Assembly (NCBI GenBank): GCA_937922235.1
Contig: CAKZVC010000068.1
Location: 1-64,000, forward strand
Source of the DNA: an uncultured Acidimicrobiales bacterium
GTDB lineage: Bacteria; Actinomycetota; Acidimicrobiia; Acidimicrobiales; SHLQ01
Length of the DNA stretch: 64,000 bases
Direction of reading: 5' to 3'
Numbering within the stretch: position 1 is the stretch's first letter; each line of letters starts with the position of its first letter. The translations under genes and the position numbers were made by a program. Shown here piece by piece: positions 316-60,289 of the stretch. Below the pieces are notes generated by a model, which was given only the letters and a program-made list of their open reading frames with translations, ran no database searches and was not told where the DNA came from.

Positions 316-599
316 CGGGCTCTCAGCTCTTCCGTCGTTTGCCCTGACAACCTATGACGCTTCTTTCACAGACACGTCCTGTCGCTTTCCCTACCTCCGA
401 CGCCACCAACTCGTACATCAGCAGCGTCGCCGGTTGACAAGAAGCATGCACCAGACCCGGGTTTCGTGAAGCGGAAACCTACGGCCAAGGAAATCTTCGA
501 AGAATTCCAATCCGATGTTCGAGGTGCTCCGAACTCTTTCCACATGCCGGCGCTAACCGCTCCGGAAACCCCCCCCAACACCCCCGAAAGGCCTGACTG

Positions 600-1793
600 A
601 TGTCACGCAAATCTCTTTATCGAAACACCAAGCTTGCAAGTCTGCTTTTTGCTGGAACCCTCGTCGCTACCGCGTGCGGATCAAGTTCCTCACCAGCCGA
701 GACCGCAGCAACCACCGCTCCCGAAACAACTGCGGTTGTAGAAGAAGCTATGACCGACGAAGCCATGGCCGACGAGGCAATGGTCGAAGACGCCATGCTT
801 GGCGCATTCGGTCCAGCATGTGCAGCTGTTCCCGCTGACGGCGAAGGCAGCTTTGCCGGAATGGCCGACGACCCAGCCGGAACCGCAGCATCGAACAACC
901 CGCTGCTCTCAACCCTCGTCACCGCAGCAACCGAAGCCGGACTCGTCGACACACTCAACAGCGACGGACCATTCACCATCTTCGCCCCAACCAACGAAGC
1001 CTTCGCAGCCATCGACCCAGCAACCCTCGACGCAGTCCTTGCTGACAAAGAGCTGCTGACAGCAATCTTGACGTACCACGTCATCGGCGGTCAGAGCCTC
1101 AGCGCAAGCGAACTGGCTGACGCCGGAACCATCGCAACGGTCGAATCCACCGACATCAGCTTCGGCAGCGATGGCGTGATAGTCAACGCAGCCAACGTCA
1201 TTTGCTCGAACGTTCCAGTCGCTAACGGCACCGTGCACATCATTGACAGCGTTCTGCTTCCACAGGTCGCTCTCGACGCACTCGCAGCAGCAGCTGAGGG
1301 CGCAATGGAAGAAGTTGCAATGCCAACAGGTCCAGCATGTGCAGCTGTTCCCGCTGATGGCGAAGGCAGCTTTGCCGGCATGGCCGACGACCCAGCCGGA
1401 ACCGCAGCATCGAACAACCCGCTGCTCTCGACCCTGGTCACCGCAGCAACTGAAGCCGGACTCGTCGACACGCTCAACAGCGACGGACCATTCACCATCT
1501 TTGCTCCGACCAACGAAGCCTTCGCAGCGATCGACCCAGCAACCCTCGAGGCAGTCCTTGCTGACAAGGAAATGCTGACCGCAGTCTTGACCAACCATGT
1601 CATCGCCGGTCAGAGCCTCAGCGCAGCCGAACTGGCTGACGCCGGAACCATCGCAACCGTTGGTGGTGGCGACCTCAACTTCATGAGCGATGGCCAGCTC
1701 ATGATCGGCGAAGCAACGGCGCTTTGCCAGGACGTGCCAACAGCGAACGCAACGGTGCACATCATCGATCAGGTCTTGCTTCCAGCTAGCTGA
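600..1793 (+). CDS. Lipoprotein with two tandem fasciclin (FAS1) domains
   Basis: 397 residues. A signal peptide ends in a lipobox (LVATAC, Cys about 26), so the protein should be anchored to the outer face of the membrane. A low-complexity linker (Thr/Ala/Glu with repeats such as DEAMADEAM) leads to two FAS1 domains, about residues 85-225 and 258-396. Each carries the family core FTIFAPTNEAF and a late VHIID(S/Q)VLLP strand. FAS1 domains act in adhesion or matrix contact. The two domains are almost identical over their first 110 residues, at DNA level too, which points to recent duplication. The gene ends 50 nt before a strong terminator and appears to be a single-gene unit. Confidence 0.9.
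   Translation: MSRKSLYRNTKLASLLFAGTLVATACGSSSSPAETAATTAPETTAVVEEAMTDEAMADEAMVEDAMLGAFGPACAAVPADGEGSFAGMADDPAGTAASNNPLLSTLVTAATEAGLVDTLNSDGPFTIFAPTNEAFAAIDPATLDAVLADKELLTAILTYHVIGGQSLSASELADAGTIATVESTDISFGSDGVIVNAANVICSNVPVANGTVHIIDSVLLPQVALDALAAAAEGAMEEVAMPTGPACAAVPADGEGSFAGMADDPAGTAASNNPLLSTLVTAATEAGLVDTLNSDGPFTIFAPTNEAFAAIDPATLEAVLADKEMLTAVLTNHVIAGQSLSAAELADAGTIATVGGGDLNFMSDGQLMIGEATALCQDVPTANATVHIIDQVLLPAS
810..1657 (+). repeat. Recent tandem duplication inside the FAS1 gene
   Basis: Two direct repeats, 810-1138 and 1329-1657, are offset by exactly 519 nt (173 codons) with no indel and only scattered, mostly third-position differences. Outside them the two FAS1 copies diverge clearly. The pattern suggests a recent in-frame duplication, or gene conversion that keeps the copies alike. 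Confidence 0.85.
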
Positions 1794-1842
1794 TCATCGA
1801 CCTCGCAACGCTGAGACCCGCCCTCAGTGGGGTGATGGGCAG

Positions 1843-1871
1843 GAGCGCCGACCGAATCTCGGTCGGCGCTC
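1843..1871 (+). terminator. Strong hairpin terminator after the FAS1 gene
   Basis: A 13-bp perfect stem (1843-1855 with 1859-1871), GC-rich, with a 3-nt loop is followed by ttgcgcgtttt. It closes the FAS1 transcript and separates it from the promoter of the next gene. Confidence 0.8.
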
Positions 1872-1922
1872 TTGCGCGTTTTGGCGTTGTGCTCACTTTG
1901 GGCGGACAGAGTCGGCGTGACC

Positions 1923-1937
1923 TACGCTCCTAGGATG
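1923..1937 (+). promoter_or_regulatory. -10 box giving a probable leaderless transcript
   Basis: TACGCT (1923-1928) lies 6 nt before the ATG at 1935. That places transcription start at or next to the start codon. A -35 is weak (ttgggc at 1898-1903). The spacing matches other promoters in this window. Confidence 0.5.
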
Positions 1938-2429
1938 CTGCCGATCGAACACTTCTCGGACTCGCTGTTCAGCGATCTTGGGTCGTTTCAGGTGACCGAC
2001 AAGATGGCTATCGGCGAAAGCCTTGAACAGCTCATTCCCGATGCTGCTGGTATCTGGCGTGTTCGGTGGATCGACATCCCGACCTCCGACAGGATCTACG
2101 ACGACATCGAAGCTGAGGGTGGCGACACCGACGGACGCTGCTGTCAGCAGCTCCAAGTTTTCCTCGAGGACGTCGATCCGAACGAGCTGATGGCGTTGCT
2201 CACACCACTCTGCACCTTGCCGGTCGATGCGGCGAACTTCCGCGTCGGCGACAGTTCGCTCGCTTCGATTTTCGAAACCTTCGGCCCCCTAAGCCCGCTC
2301 TTCGATGGCGTGGAAGGTCGTATTGGTGGCGCTGGCGCGAGCGTGTACCTCGGAGGCGACGGCCGCGCCGAAGTTCACCTCGTGAGCGATGAGTTTGGAC
2401 CTCAGCTAGTCCACGTCAATCTGAAGTAG
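1935..2429 (+). CDS. Hypothetical protein, 164 aa
   Basis: I do not recognise this protein. An in-frame start further left at 1872 would sit in the terminator tail, so I chose the ATG at 1935 (MLPIEHFSDSLF), which has a -10 box just before it. The product is acidic, without a signal peptide or membrane segment, and has two adjacent cysteines (GRCCQQL) mid-protein and a Gly-rich stretch (GRIGGAGASVYLGGDG) near the end. It should be cytoplasmic. It is a single gene between a terminator and a convergent regulator gene. Confidence 0.6.
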   Translation: MLPIEHFSDSLFSDLGSFQVTDKMAIGESLEQLIPDAAGIWRVRWIDIPTSDRIYDDIEAEGGDTDGRCCQQLQVFLEDVDPNELMALLTPLCTLPVDAANFRVGDSSLASIFETFGPLSPLFDGVEGRIGGAGASVYLGGDGRAEVHLVSDEFGPQLVHVNLK

Positions 2430-2452
2430 CCGCCAGGTGACTGACAACGCTG

Positions 2453-2746
2453 CTATCTAAGGCTACTGATGAGGTCGCCTACGGTGTGGTGGCTTTCGAG
2501 CGGGTGCCGTAACGGGATGTCGAGGATGACGCTGTACTGATTGCGGCGCCCGACCTTCTCACTCTTCACGTACCCAGCGTCTTCGAGCTCATGGATGATC
2601 CGCTGGACTGCACCGATTGTGATACCGACTGCATACGCGATGTCTTTTTGGCGTGCCTGGGGGTCTTGGCTGATCGCAAGCAAGACGTGTGCGTGATTCG
2701 ACAAAAACGTCCAGGAAGGGAGCTCAGGCTCGGGTGCGGACAGCAT
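2453..2746 (-). CDS. Small winged-helix transcriptional regulator
   Basis: 97 residues from the ATG at 2744-2746, which has a GGAG sequence just upstream. A GTG at 2797 would extend it and overlap the antiporter stop codon (TAGTG), but lacks a ribosome site. The core is a MarR/ArsR-like winged helix: a helix (HAHVLLAISQD), then DIAYAVGITIGAVQRIIHELEDAGYV as helix-turn-helix, and a wing (KVGRRNQYSVI). It is the last gene of the stress-protein/antiporter operon, so it may regulate that operon; this is inference. The ligand is unknown. Confidence 0.75.
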   Translation of the reverse strand: MLSAPEPELPSWTFLSNHAHVLLAISQDPQARQKDIAYAVGITIGAVQRIIHELEDAGYVKSEKVGRRNQYSVILDIPLRHPLESHHTVGDLISSLR

Positions 2747-2796
2747 GACTCCCACAATACCTCTATTTGTTTGTGCGTTTCCAGAAAGCAACGTCA

Positions 2797-3870
2797 CTAC
2801 ACACCAACCAATTCTGGTTCGTTGCTGACTGGGACATCATCAGCGGCAACCTCGATGGTCGGGGTCGAGCTCGGCGTCACCGCAATGACAACGGTTTGAT
2901 CGAGGTTCTCGAGCGCGTGATGAATCGTGTGTCCCAAGAACAAGTCTTCGCCACCGTTACGACTCGTGCCAGCAAGAATGACGATGTCAGAGCCAACATC
3001 CTTAGCTGTACTGACGATGCGAGCAGCCACGTTCTCGTCTGCTTGGACAATGGTCGTGTGGGTCGCTCCGAGCTTCGTTGCGAAGCTCTCCGCAGCATTG
3101 ACCGCCGTGCGAATGGCCCGGTTCCCAGACAGAGGATCGTCGCCGTTGGCACGCACCCGACGAAGAGAACTGTCGACAACTCGCTGCCCGAGGGTGAAGG
3201 CCAGGCCGAAGAAGAGGAAGAGTCCGCCGATCGTGATGGCGAGTTTGTCGAGCTTGATACCACCCGCTTGCGCGAGGCCAGCAATGACGCCGAGCGCAAT
3301 CCAGCCCACAACATCGTTGGCCATACCAGCAGCAAGGGTGAGCTGGCCGAAGTTGCGGCGCATAAGCCCCATCTCCCCAAGGATCTTGGCGATTACTGGC
3401 AGCGATGAGATCGAAAGCGCAGCAGCGATGAAGAGAGCAAAGATATAGCGCTCGGTTTCTCCGCCAACAAAGGCCACAGGGATATACCAGCCCACGAGGA
3501 ACCCGGCAACTGCGGGCACGATCAGCGACCCAGCAGACACAAAGGTGGCAGCTTTGCCGAGTCGACCAATGAGGCCGAGGTCGGTTTCAAATCCTGTCGC
3601 CACGAGAAGTAGCAGCACTCCGATCCAACCGACGGTGAAGAGCATGCCGGTCTGAACGTCATCGTCGGGAAACAGCCACCCAAAGGTGTCGGGAGATAGT
3701 CGGCCGAGAACCGATGGCCCAATGATGAGGCCTGCGGCGAGCTCACCGACAACCGACGGCTGCCCAATGCGCTGCATGAGTGCCCCAAAGAGCCGTGCGA
3801 CAGCGAGGATGACAAGGAGGCTCACCCAGAAGACGAGTAGTTGGTGTTCTGTTGGTGGGTTCAGATTCAC
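2797..3870 (-). CDS. Shortened CPA2 cation/proton antiporter fused to a universal-stress domain
   Basis: 357 residues from a GTG start whose GTGA overlaps the upstream stop. Residues 1-235 are the N-terminal half of a KefB/NhaP-type Na+(K+)/H+ exchanger with about seven membrane segments (GQPSVVGELAAGLIIGPSVLG is the family signature). Sequence then passes through SLRRVRANGDD straight into a UspA-like domain without its first strand (residues about 245-340), ending in the GTSRNGG...LGHTIHHAL nucleotide-loop pattern. Full-length relatives have about 380 transporter residues before the stress domains, so the second half of the transporter seems to be missing in frame. Whether it still transports is doubtful. 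Confidence 0.75.
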   Translation of the reverse strand: MNLNPPTEHQLLVFWVSLLVILAVARLFGALMQRIGQPSVVGELAAGLIIGPSVLGRLSPDTFGWLFPDDDVQTGMLFTVGWIGVLLLLVATGFETDLGLIGRLGKAATFVSAGSLIVPAVAGFLVGWYIPVAFVGGETERYIFALFIAAALSISSLPVIAKILGEMGLMRRNFGQLTLAAGMANDVVGWIALGVIAGLAQAGGIKLDKLAITIGGLFLFFGLAFTLGQRVVDSSLRRVRANGDDPLSGNRAIRTAVNAAESFATKLGATHTTIVQADENVAARIVSTAKDVGSDIVILAGTSRNGGEDLFLGHTIHHALENLDQTVVIAVTPSSTPTIEVAADDVPVSNEPELVGV

Positions 3871-22122: not shown

Positions 22123-22178
22123 TCCACTAGGAAACCAGGTTCAGCGGGCCTTGAGGTGTTCCTACCGGATGAAGTGTC

Positions 22179-25143: not shown

Positions 25144-25180
25144 AGGTCTGACCCCTGCCCCTCCCCCAGGGGTCAGGCCT
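25144..25180. terminator. 14-bp hairpin, terminator-like or operator
   Basis: aggtctgacccctg (25144-25157) pairs with caggggtcaggcct (25167-25180), with one G-T pair, around a C-rich loop. It lies 28 nt after the membrane-protein stop and 40 nt before the cupredoxin start. No T run follows, so partial termination or mRNA processing is possible. Its core resembles the ggggtcagacccc palindrome at 60260. Confidence 0.45.
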
Positions 25181-28555: not shown

Positions 28556-28570
28556 CCCACTCGGAATTCG

Positions 28571-28603
28571 TTGAGTACCGGTTGGTGGCCAACCGGTACT
28601 CAA
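28571..28603. terminator. 15-bp perfect hairpin after the glucosidase gene
   Basis: ttgagtaccggttgg (28571-28585), a 3-nt loop and its exact complement (28589-28603) lie 15 nt past the stop codon. No T run follows, but the stem is very stable. Confidence 0.65.
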
Positions 28604-28624
28604 CTCAGATCGGCCTGGTAGACC

Positions 28625-30751: not shown

Positions 30752-30788
30752 AAGTGGCGGATTAGGGACTGTCCCTAATCCGCCACTT
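30752..30788. repeat. REP-like palindrome, copy A
   Basis: Perfect 18-bp arms, aagtggcggattagggac and its complement, around one central T. It lies between the LLM oxidoreductase stop and the transposase gene. The last bases supply part of the transposase TAA stop (30787-30789, minus strand). Confidence 0.9.
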
Positions 30789-31653
30789 AGAGCTGCCATG
30801 AGTTCTCCCACCAGGCTGGTAGTTCTGGAACTCGGCCGATATCGGTCACTGCCTGGCCGAACAGGTAGGAGAAGTCAGCATTTTCAGATCGAGCAGACTG
30901 CGCCCGTTTGAGCAACCGCCTTGCGGTTGTCTCGGACAGGCCAGCAAGCTTGGCAAGCGCTGTCGTTGGAGTTCCGAGCAACTCACTGGCAAGCAGGAAC
31001 ACCATCTGTAGTCCGAGGTTCGGCCGACGGGGTTCGTATTCGATCACTTCACCGGGTGAGGCGAAGTACATCCTTGCGACCGTCTTCTGTATGTCGGTGA
31101 GTGACGGAATCCAGAGGTCGTGCTTGTCATCCTCTACAAAGTCGCGGAACTGCTCGACGGAGTTATCGAAGAGCTCAAGCGTCGGACGTGTCCCAAGCCA
31201 GTGGGTTGGTCGTAGGCCGAGATATGCGCCATGCGACGACCACTCATACGACGCGAGATCCATCTCATCGTCGATGGCGAGTGGGTTGCGATGGATGTAG
31301 CGGACAGCGTTGGCGTGATATTCGGGATCGTTGACCGGCGACGAAAAGAACCGGTCGGAGAAGAGGGGCCCGCGAAGCTCGTGCCGATTGTTGAAGTACT
31401 GCGTGTAGAGAAATCCAACACGATGCAGGGCTCGAGCAAGTTGCTCGAGATCGGCTTCAGCCACGATGTGATAGTGGTTCGTCATGAGGCAGAACGCCTC
31501 AATCTCGACTTTGAACCGCTCGTACAGCTCACTCAGGAGCCATAGGAAGAACTTCCGATCTGCGTCGTCCAGGAACGCTGGGAAGTCTCGTGACGTGCGA
31601 TTCGTGACGTGATGTCGCTCGCCTGGACGGTGAATTCGAGGTACTCGTGCCAT
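30787..31653 (-). mobile_element. REP-associated tyrosine transposase (RAYT, Y1/HUH family)
   Basis: 288 residues. The N-terminal Y1 domain has the metal-binding HUH motif in LMTNHYHIV (H60, H62) and the catalytic Tyr most likely Y119 in AVRYIHRNP. SYEWSSHGAY is the following family motif. An extended C-terminal part (about 190-288) holds a helix-turn-helix-like stretch (ALAKLAGLSETTARRLLK) that could bind DNA. Such enzymes nick single-stranded REP hairpins and are kept as single-copy genes. A palindrome touches its stop codon and another begins 40 nt upstream of its start, the usual RAYT layout. Confidence 0.9.
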
Positions 31654-31692
31654 GACCGCGAAGGTACCGACGGGCTGTGACAGCTATTCGGG

Positions 31693-31727
31693 AGTGGCGG
31701 ATTAGGGACTGTCCCTAATTCGTCACT
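31693..31727. repeat. REP-like palindrome, copy B
   Basis: Arms of 17 nt (31693-31709 and 31711-31727) around a central T, with two mismatches in the right arm compared with copy A. It sits upstream of the transposase start and overlaps the end of the HisD-family gene, whose TGA stop (31723-31725) lies in the repeat. Confidence 0.88.
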
Positions 31728-32991
31728 TGGAGCGGAGGTCGGCGCTTCGGGCGTGGCCTTCCATGCCTTCGAGGCGCGAGATGCGCGCTGCGACCGGAGC
31801 TTCGGCGTTGCCGGCTTCGGGGGTGAGCTCTTGCCACGTGAGTTGCTTGACGAACTTCAGCGAGTTCAGCCCACCGCTGTAGCGGGCCGCTCGGCCTGTG
31901 GGGAGAATGTGGTTCGGGCCCGACGTCTTGTCGCCGAAGGTGACGTTGGTGTTGGGCCCGCAGAACAACGAGCCGTAGTTGCGCAGGCGTGCTCGCCACC
32001 ACGGCAGATCGCTGGCCAACACCTGCAGGTGCTCAGGGGCATAGTCATCACACACGGCAGCCGCTTCTTCGCGAGTGTCGACAAGGATGATCTCGCCGTG
32101 GTCGCGCCAGGCCGCCATCGCCGATGCTCGGGCCGGGTCGGGCAGGTCGTCGGCGTGTTGCTCACAGAGTGCATTGACAGCGTTGGCGAGCTCGGCCGAG
32201 GTGGTCACAAGCCAGACGGGTGAGTCGGGGCCATGTTCGGCTTGGCCAATGAGATCGGTAGCGACCATGACCGGGTCGGCGGTTTCGTCGGCGGCGATCA
32301 TCGACTCGGTGGGGCCGGCAACAACATCGATACCGACGCGGCCGAACAGCTGCCGCTTGGCTTCGGCAACAAAGCTGTTGCCGGGGCCGACGATCATGTC
32401 GGCTTCGAGGTCGGTGTACAGCCCATAGGCCAGGGCACCGATTGCTTGCACTCCCCCAAGGCCGAGCACTCGGTGCGCACCGGCAACCTTGGCCGCATGA
32501 AGGATGGCCGGATGCACGCCACCTCGTGCTGCAGTGGCAGGCGAGGTCACGACGATGTTCTTGACACCGGCAACCGATGCGGTGGTCACGCTCATCAGCG
32601 CTGAGGCAATGTGGGCGAACCGGCCCGCTGGCACGTAGCAACCCGCGACACCGACAGGCACGTTGCGTTGGCCGGCGATGAGGCCGGGTGAGATCTCAAT
32701 CTCGAACTCGGTGAGCGAGGCCAGCTGCGCTTCAGCAAACCGCCGGATGTGGTCGTGGGCGTAGTCGATGTCGGCGAGCACGCTCGGGTCGAGCTGGGCG
32801 CTCGCGGCATCGATCTCGTCGGCACCTACTTCGATGGGCCCGGTCCACTGGTCGAACTGTTCGGCCAAACGCTCGGCCTCGGCTTCACGCCCGGTTTCAA
32901 GGCCCGCAAGCAACTCGGCCACGCGCTCGCGAACGGCGGGGTCGGTCTCGTTCTGCGGACGCGGCGCCTTCTTGATGAACGTGCTGGTCAT
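31723..32991 (-). CDS. HisD-family dehydrogenase, possibly HpsN-like
   Basis: 422 residues from the ATG at 32989-32991, overlapping the decarboxylase stop (ATGA). Histidinol-dehydrogenase features: GCYVPAGR, VGPGNSFVAEAKRQLFGRVGIDVVAGPTES, zinc-ligand region GQAEHGPDSP and the catalytic EH pair in YAPEHLQVL. The start (FIKKAPRP) and NHILPTGRAARYSGG recall the HpsN branch, which oxidises 2,3-dihydroxypropane-1-sulfonate. No other his genes are nearby, so a role outside histidine synthesis is likely. The substrate is not proven. Its last codons lie at the edge of a REP-like palindrome. Confidence 0.75.
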   Translation of the reverse strand: MTSTFIKKAPRPQNETDPAVRERVAELLAGLETGREAEAERLAEQFDQWTGPIEVGADEIDAASAQLDPSVLADIDYAHDHIRRFAEAQLASLTEFEIEISPGLIAGQRNVPVGVAGCYVPAGRFAHIASALMSVTTASVAGVKNIVVTSPATAARGGVHPAILHAAKVAGAHRVLGLGGVQAIGALAYGLYTDLEADMIVGPGNSFVAEAKRQLFGRVGIDVVAGPTESMIAADETADPVMVATDLIGQAEHGPDSPVWLVTTSAELANAVNALCEQHADDLPDPARASAMAAWRDHGEIILVDTREEAAAVCDDYAPEHLQVLASDLPWWRARLRNYGSLFCGPNTNVTFGDKTSGPNHILPTGRAARYSGGLNSLKFVKQLTWQELTPEAGNAEAPVAARISRLEGMEGHARSADLRSK

Positions 32992-34502
32992 GCGTATGCC
33001 TCCATACCTGCGGCATCGATGGCGTCGAGCAACGCGTCGACGTCTTCGGTCTGCAGCGTGGTGCTCATGCAGATCATGCGGAACGTGTTGAGGCCGTGGA
33101 TTGGTTGGTAGCCGATCATCCCCGAACCGTCGGCTTGCATTCGGGCCTTGATGCGTGGCGGGCATGCGTGGAGCTCGGCGTGAACTTCGTCGCGGAGCGA
33201 GCTCGGATCGTCGAGCTGCAACGGACGCAGGTGCGGCGGCACCCAGGCGAACACCTCGTTGGTGAAGTCTCCAGAGACAAGCGACGTGAACGCTCCATTA
33301 CTTGCACCGATTCGAGCTCGGGTGTGGTCGCCCATGGCAACGGCGTGATCGATGCGCTCGGCAAAGCCTTCGTCGCCCCGAGCCTTCCACGTGAGCCAGA
33401 GCTTCAGTACATCGATGCGTCGAGCGCACTGGAACGTGCGGTCGCCCGAGTCGTATTCAGCATTGAGCTTGTCGGATTGGAAGAGATAGTCAGCGCGGGC
33501 AGCAAAGCACGCAGCGAGCTGCTCGGGCTTCTTGACTAGCAGCGCAGTGCACTGCTGCGTCATGCCCATCATCTTGTGGAGGTTCCACACGAACGAGTCG
33601 GAGCGCTCGACGCCAGCGAGACGGTGGGCCTCGCTCTCGGAGAACAGAGCCGACCCGCCATAACAGCCGTCGACGTGCAGCCAGAGGTTGCGGGCTTCGC
33701 AGATATCGGCCAGCGCATTGAGGTCGTCGAATGCCGAGGTGACCGTGGTGCCCGACGTGCCAATGACGGCGAACGGCGTCTTGCCGTCAGCGATGGCCTG
33801 ATCGATTGCTGCGTCGAGGGCTTCGGGGATCATTGCACCGCCATGATCGGACGCCACCTTGATGACGCCCGCGGTGCCGATGCCAAGTAGTGCGGCCGAC
33901 TTCGAGGCAGCGTAGTGGCCGCTGTCGGAAACGAACATGGCCAGGCGGTCGCCGTTCGACCCAGCCGTGGTGACGTCAGGCTGATGGCGGTGACGTGCTA
34001 GCTGCAACGCAAACAATGTGCCCATCGATCCGCCGGCACAGAACAGGCCTGGCGGCAGGGTGGGCAGATGGGCGCTGGCACTGTTGTCATCGTCGCTGTC
34101 GACGTAGCCAGCGAAGCGTCCGAGCTTTGAGAGCACCGCTGTTTCCATCATGGTGAATACCGGCGCTACCTCGAAGGTCGCTCCCGTCGTGTTCAGCGCG
34201 GCACCGAGCCAGTCACCCACGACCGAGATTGGGTCGGGGCCGGCGAAATTCTGGTTCACGAACCGAGGGTGGCTGGTGTGCATCGAATACTCGATGACCT
34301 TCTCGACCGCCGCCAACAGGTCGTCGTCGGCATGGGCCGACGCCGTGTTGGCAAAGTCGAGGCCGACCGATGCCGAGAACGTCTCGACGAGCTCAGCCGG
34401 CGACGCAAGCGAGATAACCGGATCGTCGCCACGAGGTGGGTCGGTCAGATACGCCGATGCTTGCTCGATGATGCGTTCGATCAGGTCGGCTCTCTCAGTC
34501 AT
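32988..34502 (-). CDS. Group II PLP-dependent decarboxylase (GAD/CSAD-like)
   Basis: 504 residues. HPRFVNQNFAGPDPISVVGDW and TFEVAPVFTMME match the glutamate/cysteine-sulfinate decarboxylase branch. PLP contacts: H196 in SDSGHYAASK, D278 in HVDGCYGG, and the Schiff-base K310 in WNLHKMMG. It would release CO2 from an amino acid such as glutamate, aspartate or cysteine sulfinate. It is coupled by ATGA to a HisD/HpsN-like dehydrogenase, which hints at sulfonate or amino-alcohol metabolism; this is inference. Confidence 0.85.
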   Translation of the reverse strand: MTERADLIERIIEQASAYLTDPPRGDDPVISLASPAELVETFSASVGLDFANTASAHADDDLLAAVEKVIEYSMHTSHPRFVNQNFAGPDPISVVGDWLGAALNTTGATFEVAPVFTMMETAVLSKLGRFAGYVDSDDDNSASAHLPTLPPGLFCAGGSMGTLFALQLARHRHQPDVTTAGSNGDRLAMFVSDSGHYAASKSAALLGIGTAGVIKVASDHGGAMIPEALDAAIDQAIADGKTPFAVIGTSGTTVTSAFDDLNALADICEARNLWLHVDGCYGGSALFSESEAHRLAGVERSDSFVWNLHKMMGMTQQCTALLVKKPEQLAACFAARADYLFQSDKLNAEYDSGDRTFQCARRIDVLKLWLTWKARGDEGFAERIDHAVAMGDHTRARIGASNGAFTSLVSGDFTNEVFAWVPPHLRPLQLDDPSSLRDEVHAELHACPPRIKARMQADGSGMIGYQPIHGLNTFRMICMSTTLQTEDVDALLDAIDAAGMEAYA

Positions 34503-54635: not shown

Positions 54636-54674
54636 CAAGTGGCGGATTAGGGACAGTCCCTAATCCGCCACTTG
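54636..54674. repeat. REP-like palindrome, copy C
   Basis: Perfect 19-bp arms, caagtggcggattagggac and its complement, around a central A. It begins at the base right after the TAA of the DSD1-like gene. It is the best-preserved of the four copies, 23 kb from the transposase. Confidence 0.9.
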
Positions 54675-54929: not shown

Positions 54930-55889
54930 ATGAAGATCGGTTTTATCGGACTCGGCAACGTGGGCGGCAAGCTTGCGGGTTCAATTCTGCGCAACGGCCT
55001 CGACCTGATGGTGCGAGATCTAGATGAGGGTGCAGCCCAGCATCTGCTCGACGCTGGCGCATCGTGGGCCGATTCGCCCAAGGAGATGGCCGAGGCGTGC
55101 GACATCGTCATCACCTGCCTCCCATCACCCGCCGCGAGTGCTGCGGTGCTCGAGGCCGACGATGGCCTGCTCGCTGGCTTTGGCCCCGGCAAGGTGTGGA
55201 TGGAAATGAGCACTACCGACGAAGCTGAGGTCAAGCGCCTCGGCGCCATGGTGAAGGCCACCGGTGCCGAGCCGGTCGACTGCCCTGTGTCGGGTGGTTG
55301 CCATCGTGCGGCCACCGGCAACATCGCCATCTTTGCCGGCTGCGAGCGCGAGACGTTCGAGAAGATCATGCCTGTGCTCAAGACCATGGGTCGCCGCCTG
55401 CTTCACACCGGCGACCTCGGCAGCGCGTCGACGCTCAAGGTCATGACCAACTACCTCGCTACCGCCAACCTGCTCACCGTTTGCGAAGCACTCGTGACGT
55501 CGGCAGCTGCTGGTATGGACCTCAACACCACTTATGAAGCCATCGCCATCTCATCGGGCAACAGCTTTGTCCACGAGACCGAAGGTCAGGTCATCTTGAA
55601 CGGCAGTCGCGACATCAACTTCACGATGGACCTTGTGAAGAAGGACATCGGTCTGTTCCAAGCCATCGCCGACCGTCACGACGTGCCGCTCGAGATCAGC
55701 CCGGTGCTCATCGACATCTTCGACGACGGCATCGAGCGCTTTGGCGAGCGCGAGTGGTCGCCCAACATCATCAAGCGCCTTGAGGAAGCGACGGGGCTGA
55801 GCATTCTCGCTCCGGGCTTCCCGCCCGAGATGCTCGATGATGAACCAGAAGAGCCAGGCTACGAAGTCATCCCCACCGGAAAGAGCTAA
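54930..55889 (+). CDS. NAD(P)-dependent 3-hydroxyisobutyrate dehydrogenase-like enzyme
   Basis: 319 residues, with GAAGGAG well placed before the ATG. The Rossmann motif IGFIGLGNVGGKLAGSILR opens the protein; the substrate loop DCPVSGGCHRAATGN (about 112-126) and the catalytic Lys in STLKVMTNYLATANL are in the usual order for beta-hydroxyacid dehydrogenases. The cysteine in GGC replaces a more common Val/Thr. It should oxidise a 3-hydroxy acid. The class V aminotransferase starts 3 nt after its stop. Confidence 0.88.
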   Translation: MKIGFIGLGNVGGKLAGSILRNGLDLMVRDLDEGAAQHLLDAGASWADSPKEMAEACDIVITCLPSPAASAAVLEADDGLLAGFGPGKVWMEMSTTDEAEVKRLGAMVKATGAEPVDCPVSGGCHRAATGNIAIFAGCERETFEKIMPVLKTMGRRLLHTGDLGSASTLKVMTNYLATANLLTVCEALVTSAAAGMDLNTTYEAIAISSGNSFVHETEGQVILNGSRDINFTMDLVKKDIGLFQAIADRHDVPLEISPVLIDIFDDGIERFGEREWSPNIIKRLEEATGLSILAPGFPPEMLDDEPEEPGYEVIPTGKS

Positions 55890-57098: not shown

Positions 57099-57137
57099 CA
57101 AGTGGTGGATGAGGGACTGTCCCTAATCCGCCACTTG
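57099..57137. repeat. REP-like palindrome, copy D
   Basis: Arms of 19 nt around a central T; the right arm is identical to copy C, the left arm has two changes (57105 and 57111). It lies between the aminotransferase stop and the end of a convergent small gene. Confidence 0.88.
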
Positions 57138-59810: not shown

Positions 59811-60289
59811 TTCCCGGGCTTCGCCCTCCATCGCTCGGCTCGTCGCTCCGCTTTGGAGCCTCGGCTGCTGCACGGGAACGCTTCGCGTTTCCTAGCCCTT
59901 TGGTGCCAGGCACAAAGTGGCTCTGGATCTCGTTCTTGCCGTTGCCATAACTCTCTATGCGAGCTCTCCGTGAGTCCGGTGAGCCTGGCACCAAACCGCC
60001 TTTTGGTGCCAGGTACACATTGTCAAAGAACCTCGCAATCAGCGCTTGATTCGCAACGCGTTGACGATACAGTCAGTTGATTTTTCAGCAAACAGCGAGG
60101 TTGGGTGCGGCCCGCTAGTGCCTGGCACCAGGCGTGTATGGCGGTGTCCACCTCTGCACAAAAAGTCACACGCGTATCGCCTTCCCTGCTGGCTGGTGCC
60201 AGGCACGAATTGACCGCTTGGTGCCAGGCACCAAACAGGAACGAGGGCCCGCGTCCAATGGGGTCAGACCCCGGTCGACGCGTTTGGAG
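59811..60289. repeat. Convergent gap filled with short palindromes
   Basis: This 479-nt stretch between two convergent genes has no credible gene. It holds six copies of a GGTGCCAGGCACC-type palindrome: 59899-59916, 59981-59995, 60001-60018, 60118-60132, 60193-60206 and 60217-60236, the last with perfect ttggtgcc/ggcaccaa arms. Copies 2 and 3 face each other as a 12-bp hairpin (59984-59995 with 60002-60013). One ggggtc-a-gacccc palindrome lies at 60260-60272. Spacing is irregular, so it is not a CRISPR array; it looks like a REP/REPIN cluster. Confidence 0.8.

Follow-up and report, generated by a model that had tools for sequence, protein, structure and literature searches.

A Y1 transposase gene bracketed by palindromes

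The window, that is, the whole 64,000-nt stretch of DNA analysed here, belongs to a draft genome of 4.40 Mb (G000; 118 contigs, 87.5% complete) and carries, at the 3' end of a hisD-like gene, a Y1/HUH transposase gene flanked on both sides by palindromes, two solitary copies of which lie elsewhere in the window (Table 1). A previous sequence-only reading had reported the four palindromes; those of the unit and the one at 54636 are as described, and the fourth pairs imperfectly. The perfect 37-nt palindrome that was said to touch the transposase stop codon overlaps it by two bases, and the 5' palindrome contributes the TGA stop of hisD.

Table 1. Features of the transposase unit and related palindromes in the window
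Feature	Coordinates	Strand	Remarks
Y1/HUH transposase, 288 aa, single open frame	30787..31653	-	NHYH at 59-62, Y119 in YIHRNP
Pfam Y1_Tnp match, transposase residues 28-123	31285..31572	-	33.5 bits, cut-off 23
C-terminal domain with predicted DnaA domain IV fold, ~residues 185-280	30814..31101	-	Predicted structure
3' palindrome of the unit, perfect 18+1+18	30752..30788		Shares two bases with the transposase stop codon
5' palindrome of the unit, 17+1+17, two mismatches	31693..31727		39 nt upstream of the transposase ATG
Open frame with hisD-like gene	31723..33165	-	Unit at its 3' end
Solo palindrome, perfect 19+1+19	54636..54674		Point at which relative G009 has a full palindrome-transposase-palindrome unit
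Solo palindrome, 17/19 pairs	57099..57137		Between two convergent predicted genes

The earlier proposal that each copy is a long hairpin in single-stranded DNA agrees with folding: the window palindromes form hairpins of 16–18 bp with a CTG or CAG triloop (one mismatch in the 57099 copy), and the five strands folded gave z-scores of -4.6 to -9.6. Two parts of the palindrome can be distinguished, a tip with the exact sequence TTAGGGAC-W-GTCCCTAA, conserved as GGGAC-W-GTCCC and in effect a CWG triloop, and a foot, which is GTGGCGGA in the window and GTGAACAG in a sister family found in related genomes.

The palindrome family in the source genome

Searching G000 with the 17-nt core at up to 2 mismatches yielded 41 copies, compared with none for the reversed-pattern control, confirming that the palindromes constitute a real family, well beyond chance expectation, as the sequence-only reading had supposed from the copies in the window. 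By a simple score, the arms pair over 16–23 positions in 40 copies and over 9 in one (L041). Across the aligned copies, conservation extends from -18 to about +19 relative to the centre and is near background outside these limits. The central base of the oriented copies is T in 40 of 41 and G in the remaining one, so that each copy has a direction. Stem position 10 varies and covaries (29 paired vs 20.5 expected, Fisher p 0.012), as does position 13 (33 vs 28.1, p 0.031); position 7 varies without covariation (28 vs 28.4). The left end reads GTGG in 32 copies and GTGA in 9, and this tag lies within the paired stem.

The expected intergenic enrichment was pronounced, with 40 of the 41 copies located outside predicted coding sequences (p 6e-36) by a home-made gene caller that assigned 88% of the genome as coding. 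A gene 3' end adjoins 32 copies, and 30 of these are positioned at -13 to +12 bp from the stop codon, a count inflated by the 17 copies in which the palindrome itself provides the stop. Among copies with the stop outside the palindrome, 13 of 15 are within 12 bp of it, compared with an expectation of 11% if insertion points were random. Convergent gaps are enriched (13/40 copies; p 0.0009 or 0.017 depending on the weighting), and divergent gaps hold 8/40 (p 0.03 or 0.65, likewise). The closest two copies in the genome are at least 648 bp apart. The sole copy that falls, in frame, within a long open reading frame (L049 3263, frame 583-3846) has a variant arm that gives TCA where most copies would give an in-frame TAA.

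Orthologues and a sister family in related genomes

We searched 78 genomes, G000 included, most of them related at the genus to order level, and found the footed family in only two, G000 (41 copies) and G009 (5 copies). Full-length orthologues of the transposase were identified in G009 (72% identity) and G007 (62%), with a second one in G009 (59%), so that both genomes with the footed family have an orthologue. G000 itself encodes one full-length gene, and the six paralogues found there are 39–47% identical to it.

The palindromes differ among these orthologues. The 72% orthologue of G009 is bracketed by the same palindrome as in G000. In G007, a genome of the same genus, the 62% orthologue is bracketed by TGAACAGTTAGGGACAGTCCCTAACTGTTCA, which has the same tip on the foot GTGAACAG, and the second orthologue in G009 is bracketed by a decayed form of the palindrome with this foot. 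At up to 3 mismatches, the GTGAACAG family has 11 copies in G007, 9 in G010, 3 in G005 and 2 in G009, and none in the other 7 of the 11 genomes of the genus, including G000. The search for full-length orthologues gave none in G010 and G005, which are drafts of 89% and 90% completeness, suggesting that copies may persist after loss of the gene. Further transposases in the relatives have palindromes on both sides whose tips differ from this one, namely, GGGTC, GGTGC and GGGGC.

Judged by the central base, the flanking palindromes are in direct orientation in G000 and on contig C88 of G009, and inverted in G007 and on contig C96 of G009. All four orthologues (L016, L061, L072, L091) have a 5' palindrome that reads CAG on the strand of the transposase; at the 3' side, CAG and CTG each occur in two of them.

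Empty sites and insertion of the unit

In three relatives (G003, G005 and G006), a helicase-like gene adjoins the orthologue of the gene at 54930 in the window, which we take from its sequence to be 6-phosphogluconate-dehydrogenase-like. In G009, a complete palindrome-transposase-palindrome unit is inserted between these two genes. G000 has at the same point the solo palindrome at 54636, with the central base flipped, and its helicase-like gene is located 32 kb away. Recombination between palindromes was rejected as the full cause of this break, given the absence of a palindrome on the helicase side in G000 (near 22137). The neighborhood of the unit in the window differs from that in relatives as well: in five of them, an aminotransferase gene directly follows hisD, and in G000 the unit sits at the hisD end, with the aminotransferase gene inverted and beyond another gene.

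Five relatives were searched with the joined flanks of 16 of the 41 sites, and 72 of 80 match rows were used after 8 weak ones had been dropped. Syntenic flanks were present in at least one relative for 8 of the 16 sites. No core palindrome was detected at up to 4 mismatches in 14 of the 16 relative junctions read (6 sites), and one further empty site was found in G009. At the other two junctions, a palindrome of the sister family, decayed in one case, stands next to the same stop codon (L053 3175 vs L317 1696; L028 3219 vs L321 1611), with a GTGGCG foot in G000 and the GTGAACAG foot in G007 or, decayed, in G010. These two stop codons with different feet may represent either insertion hot spots or replacement of one foot by another. 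The relatives' flanks are mostly 65–91% identical, and the alignments agree only within several bases, a resolution at which the exact insertion point, the cut site and any target duplication are not fixable. These genome comparisons document the association of the palindromes with the gene, their dispersal, the empty sites and the insertion of the unit in G009.

At one site (L050 3204), the flanks are adjacent in G000 and 2.33–2.35 kb apart in G009, G007 and G010, which places it at a junction of gene loss or gain. Of the rest of the 16 sites, some have their two flanks at separate locations and some have a single flank. A role of the palindromes as general markers of synteny breaks may at most be a lead.

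Domain architecture of the transposase

The catalytic residues reported by the sequence-only reading, H60, H62 and Y119, are present, and, together with N59 and N123, are invariant in an alignment of 61 rows. The AlphaFold (AF2) model of the protein has a mean pLDDT of 91.3, and the top Foldseek matches are 4er8 (E. coli TnpAREP on a REP hairpin) and IS608; 4er8 is also the sole PDB sequence match of the profile at E 0.01. The best NCBIfam match is REP_Tyr_transpos, which scores 44.8 bits where the cut-off is 80. The residues of E. coli TnpAREP that contact the GTAG tag, named in PMC6006769 (W94, Q95, E100, H101 and R104), align with F98, S99, S104, S105 and N108 in the profile alignment with 4er8, so that 0/5 are kept.

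When folded alone, residues 183-288 match the box-bound DnaA domain IV (1j1v; TM 0.75 query / 0.84 target, rmsd 1.8) and 3pvp (TM 0.75/0.83). In a Pfam search of the protein, HTH models appeared below the cut-off only and Bac_DnaA_C gave no match. The four orthologues share 74–85% identity over residues 1-185. Within the HTH stretch, residues 228-256, identity is 48% and 72% within a foot type and 24–31% between foot types, a link between HTH and foot that amounts to one evolutionary contrast because the four proteins fall into two clades. Long-footed palindromes also accompany two Y1 proteins that are 182 aa long and lack the C-terminal domain (L073, L078), so that a footed palindrome does not always require this domain. 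A relationship between presence of the C-terminal domain and palindrome length was considered and rejected (Mann-Whitney p 0.017, Spearman p 0.21, kinship ignored).

Distribution of the tip beyond the genus

Among 396 genomes sampled across the phylum, the exact core occurs in two, G000 and Collinsella intestinalis. A scan of species genomes yielded at least 114 core stretches, and those listed come from Clostridia, Collinsella, Roseburia, Sphingomonads, Elusimicrobia, Verrucomicrobia, Acidobacteria, Bacteroidales and others; some single matches with short arms may be due to chance. The foot sequence varies from genome to genome.

Using the 61-row profile, we detected a class-2-type Y1 gene in 11 of 14 core-bearing genomes, and in 6 of the 11, among the loci listed, a GGGAC-tip palindrome adjoins such a gene. 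In the other 5, no core palindrome was found beside the Y1 genes among the loci listed, which for two of these genomes cover only about half of the Y1 loci. Of these, Kribbibacterium carries a GGGGAC-tip palindrome approximately 0.9 kb from a Y1 gene, and C. stercoris has a GGGGTC tip at a Y1 gene. Comparison of the flanking foot with the common dispersed foot at hand-picked loci of seven genomes showed that the two are equal in three (Roseburia, G007, G000), near-equal in two (Lachnospiraceae and one actinobacterial MAG) and loosely similar in two.

Collinsella intestinalis has 13 exact core palindromes; at the seven loci examined (L099-L105), the foot resembles ACCTCAAT. The profile found no class-2 Y1 gene in this genome or in two Elusimicrobia MAGs, all incomplete drafts, and the Collinsella palindromes have, on the present assembly, the appearance of an orphaned family. 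The coupling of palindromes to the transposase implied by the sequence-only reading holds for the exact footed family in the 78 genomes and does not hold for the sister family, as far as orthologues were found in G010 and G005, or for the bare core in C. intestinalis.

We also compared the flanks of 61 Y1 genes selected by protein, 36 from the relatives and 25 from the phylum set. The same CWG-tipped 13-mer is present on both sides of 15/61 (13/36 and 2/25, respectively); in the phylum set, 3/25 genes have a CWG-tipped 13-mer on either side and 22/25 have none. Some 12-mer is common to both flanks of 54/61 genes (33/36 and 21/25), compared with 152/5000 controls, and 625/5000 in loci partly overlapping Y1 genes. 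Bracketing repeats are therefore general in this sample, and the CWG palindrome type is not. On the protein tree, tip class is clustered (11 changes vs a shuffled mean of 17.4; 0/200 shuffles as low). A single origin of the GGGAC tip was rejected, given that the tree needs at least 3 changes, in a sample that is biased because many loci were fetched by tip.

Relationship to known systems

The sequence-only reading assigned the locus to the RAYT/REP pattern, and the general layout stands, with a bracketed Y1 gene, dispersed cognate copies and co-occurrence with the orthologue. As in canonical REPtrons, there is a Y1 HUH core with Y---NP, hairpin repeats on both sides, dispersed cognate repeats and co-evolution of the two (Nunvar 2010, PMC2817692; Corneloup 2021, PMC8266576). 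Nevertheless, the transposase is not a canonical RAYT: the GTAG-contact residues are absent, the REP_Tyr_transpos score is below its cut-off, and there is no unpaired GT[AG]G tag at the foot of the hairpin. The protein additionally carries the predicted DnaA-IV-like domain, and the flanking palindromes are direct by central base in two of the four units. Canonical REPs, moreover, usually number more than 100 and are often arranged in BIMEs, in contrast to the 41 well-separated copies in G000.

The unit resembles two other groups more closely. In the TIRtrons of Di Nocera 2013 (PMC3733652), a Y1 transposase (TIRYT) is flanked by repeats other than GTAG REPs, some of them self-complementary, that form moderately abundant dispersed families and share the motif GGGGWSAS. 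This motif is matched at 7/8 positions by AGGGACAG of the window palindrome and at 8/8 by GGGGACAG of the paralogue L018. Unlike the TIRtron repeats in that account, the repeat here is a single near-perfect palindrome, in which the motif corresponds to one arm and the centre of the tip, followed by a lineage-specific foot; the palindromes thereby offer a simple account of GGGGWSAS. The terms 'Actinobacteria' and 'Acidimicrob' are absent from the main text of PMC3733652.

The other group is subclass 2.1 of TnpAY1, which Quentin 2018 (PMC6006769) equates with RAYT group 1 and describes as the second largest Y1 subclass, found in 14.9% of strains. Members share with the window protein NH[YF]H, Y---NP and a C-terminal HTH/DnaA-like domain, differing in the finer consensus Y[IV]HLNP, which has L where the window protein has R (YIHRNP). 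According to the same study, REP-like sequences were not found for this subclass by automatic or manual search, and whether its C-terminal domain recognises a repeat is left undecided; here, by contrast, a palindrome family is associated with the gene on both sides, and the HTH differs between feet. The IS200/IS605 elements (IS608, ISDra2) have the Y1 domain fold in common with the window protein and differ in that G000 has no second full-length gene copy and contains 39 further palindromes. In open-licence PMC literature searched by tip sequence and by RAYT/TIRYT, no paper among the matches listed describes such a repeat, and a term search of a 2025 REP survey (PMC12306157) gave no occurrence of RAYT, GGGAC or Collinsella.

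Interpretation and alternative explanations

From the comparative evidence, we consider the unit to be probably a REPtron-like or TIRtron-like element, with the solo palindromes as its non-autonomous units. One full-length Y1 HUH transposase gene would be bracketed by palindromes able to form single-stranded hairpins of 16–18 bp, and the same palindromes would disperse through the genome as solitary units of approximately 37 nt. We infer the cleavage step, its intermediates, the choice of strand and the assignment of domains, under which the Y1 domain would recognise the conserved tip, and the DnaA-IV-like domain the foot specific to each genome.

An ordinary RAYT/REPtron, with the 5' GTGG as the usual GT[AG]G tag (a 'double foot') and the C-terminal domain as decoration, seems unlikely. 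It would fit the GTGG left end of 32/41 copies, the identity of the best NCBIfam match, the position of 4er8 as both sole PDB profile match and top fold match, and the double-foot REPs known in subclass 2.4 (PMC6006769). Yet the tag lies inside the paired stem and reads GTGA in 9/41 copies, the sister foot GTGAACAG and the feet in other genomes have no common GT[AG]G end, none of the five contact residues is kept, and the NCBIfam score falls short of the cut-off. We hold as similarly improbable an autonomous IS200-like insertion sequence with palindromic ends, whose solo palindromes would be leftovers after gene loss. In its favor, the point occupied by the full unit in G009 carries a solo palindrome in G000, and the unit as a whole is interposed as a block between two genes that are neighbors in three relatives; however, G000 has 39 palindromes at a distance from its one full-length gene, and the shared sequence of the copies ends at about -18/+19, so that there are no gene remnants.

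The placement of the copies raises another explanation, that they are 3' elements selected by the host, such as terminator-like or mRNA-stabilising hairpins, with the transposase merely located among them. The 30/32 copies next to stop codons, where random insertion would give 11%, the enrichment in convergent gaps (13/40) and the high stability of the hairpins are all compatible with such a function. On the other hand, stop-proximal placement is usual for REPs too (PMC3733652), the listed copies have no T run after the stem, the footed family is confined to 2/78 genomes that both have the gene, the foot changes together with the transposase, and the palindrome is absent at 14/16 of the orthologous junctions read. 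We regard this explanation as quite improbable.

Within the reading of the unit as a REPtron-like or TIRtron-like element, a two-part address is a tentative possibility that we would not favor at present: the Y1 domain might read the shared tip, a CWG triloop on GGGAC, GGGTC or GGTGC arms, and a captured DnaA domain IV might read the lineage-specific foot. The foot, of 8–9 bp, would be recognised in double-stranded form within the stem of the hairpin, in a manner similar to the recognition of the 9-mer box by DnaA. Exchange of the DnaA-IV head could then give the enzyme a different palindrome family as its target, and at a given stop codon an old foot could be replaced by a new one, as might have happened at the two G000 sites with a sister palindrome in G007 and G010.

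Substrate, specificity and domain roles are directly testable in a system that offers a defined palindrome, a sister family differing from it in the foot and sharing its tip, and a predicted reading head, the fold of which is already solved in DnaA. The system would also show a DNA-binding domain of the replication-initiator type joined to a single-strand transposase, and would give a short palindrome family marking gene ends. A palindrome family is now associated with an enzyme resembling a subclass that had been reported without REP-like partners.

Other repeats in the window

The window contains additional repeats of related appearance. Within 370 bp at 59902-60272, other REP-like motifs (GGTGCCAGG, GGTGCCWGGCACC and GGGGTCWGACCCC) are clustered in what looks like a mosaic element, and their tips also bracket other Y1 transposases in relatives. 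At 25144-25180, there is an inverted pair, AGGTCTGACCCCTG / CAGGGGTCAGGCCT, that resembles a doublet of the GGGGTC-tip type. A perfect 16-nt inverted repeat with a 3-nt loop (GTTGAGTACCGGTTGG) is located at 28570-28604, between amylase-like and aminotransferase open frames.
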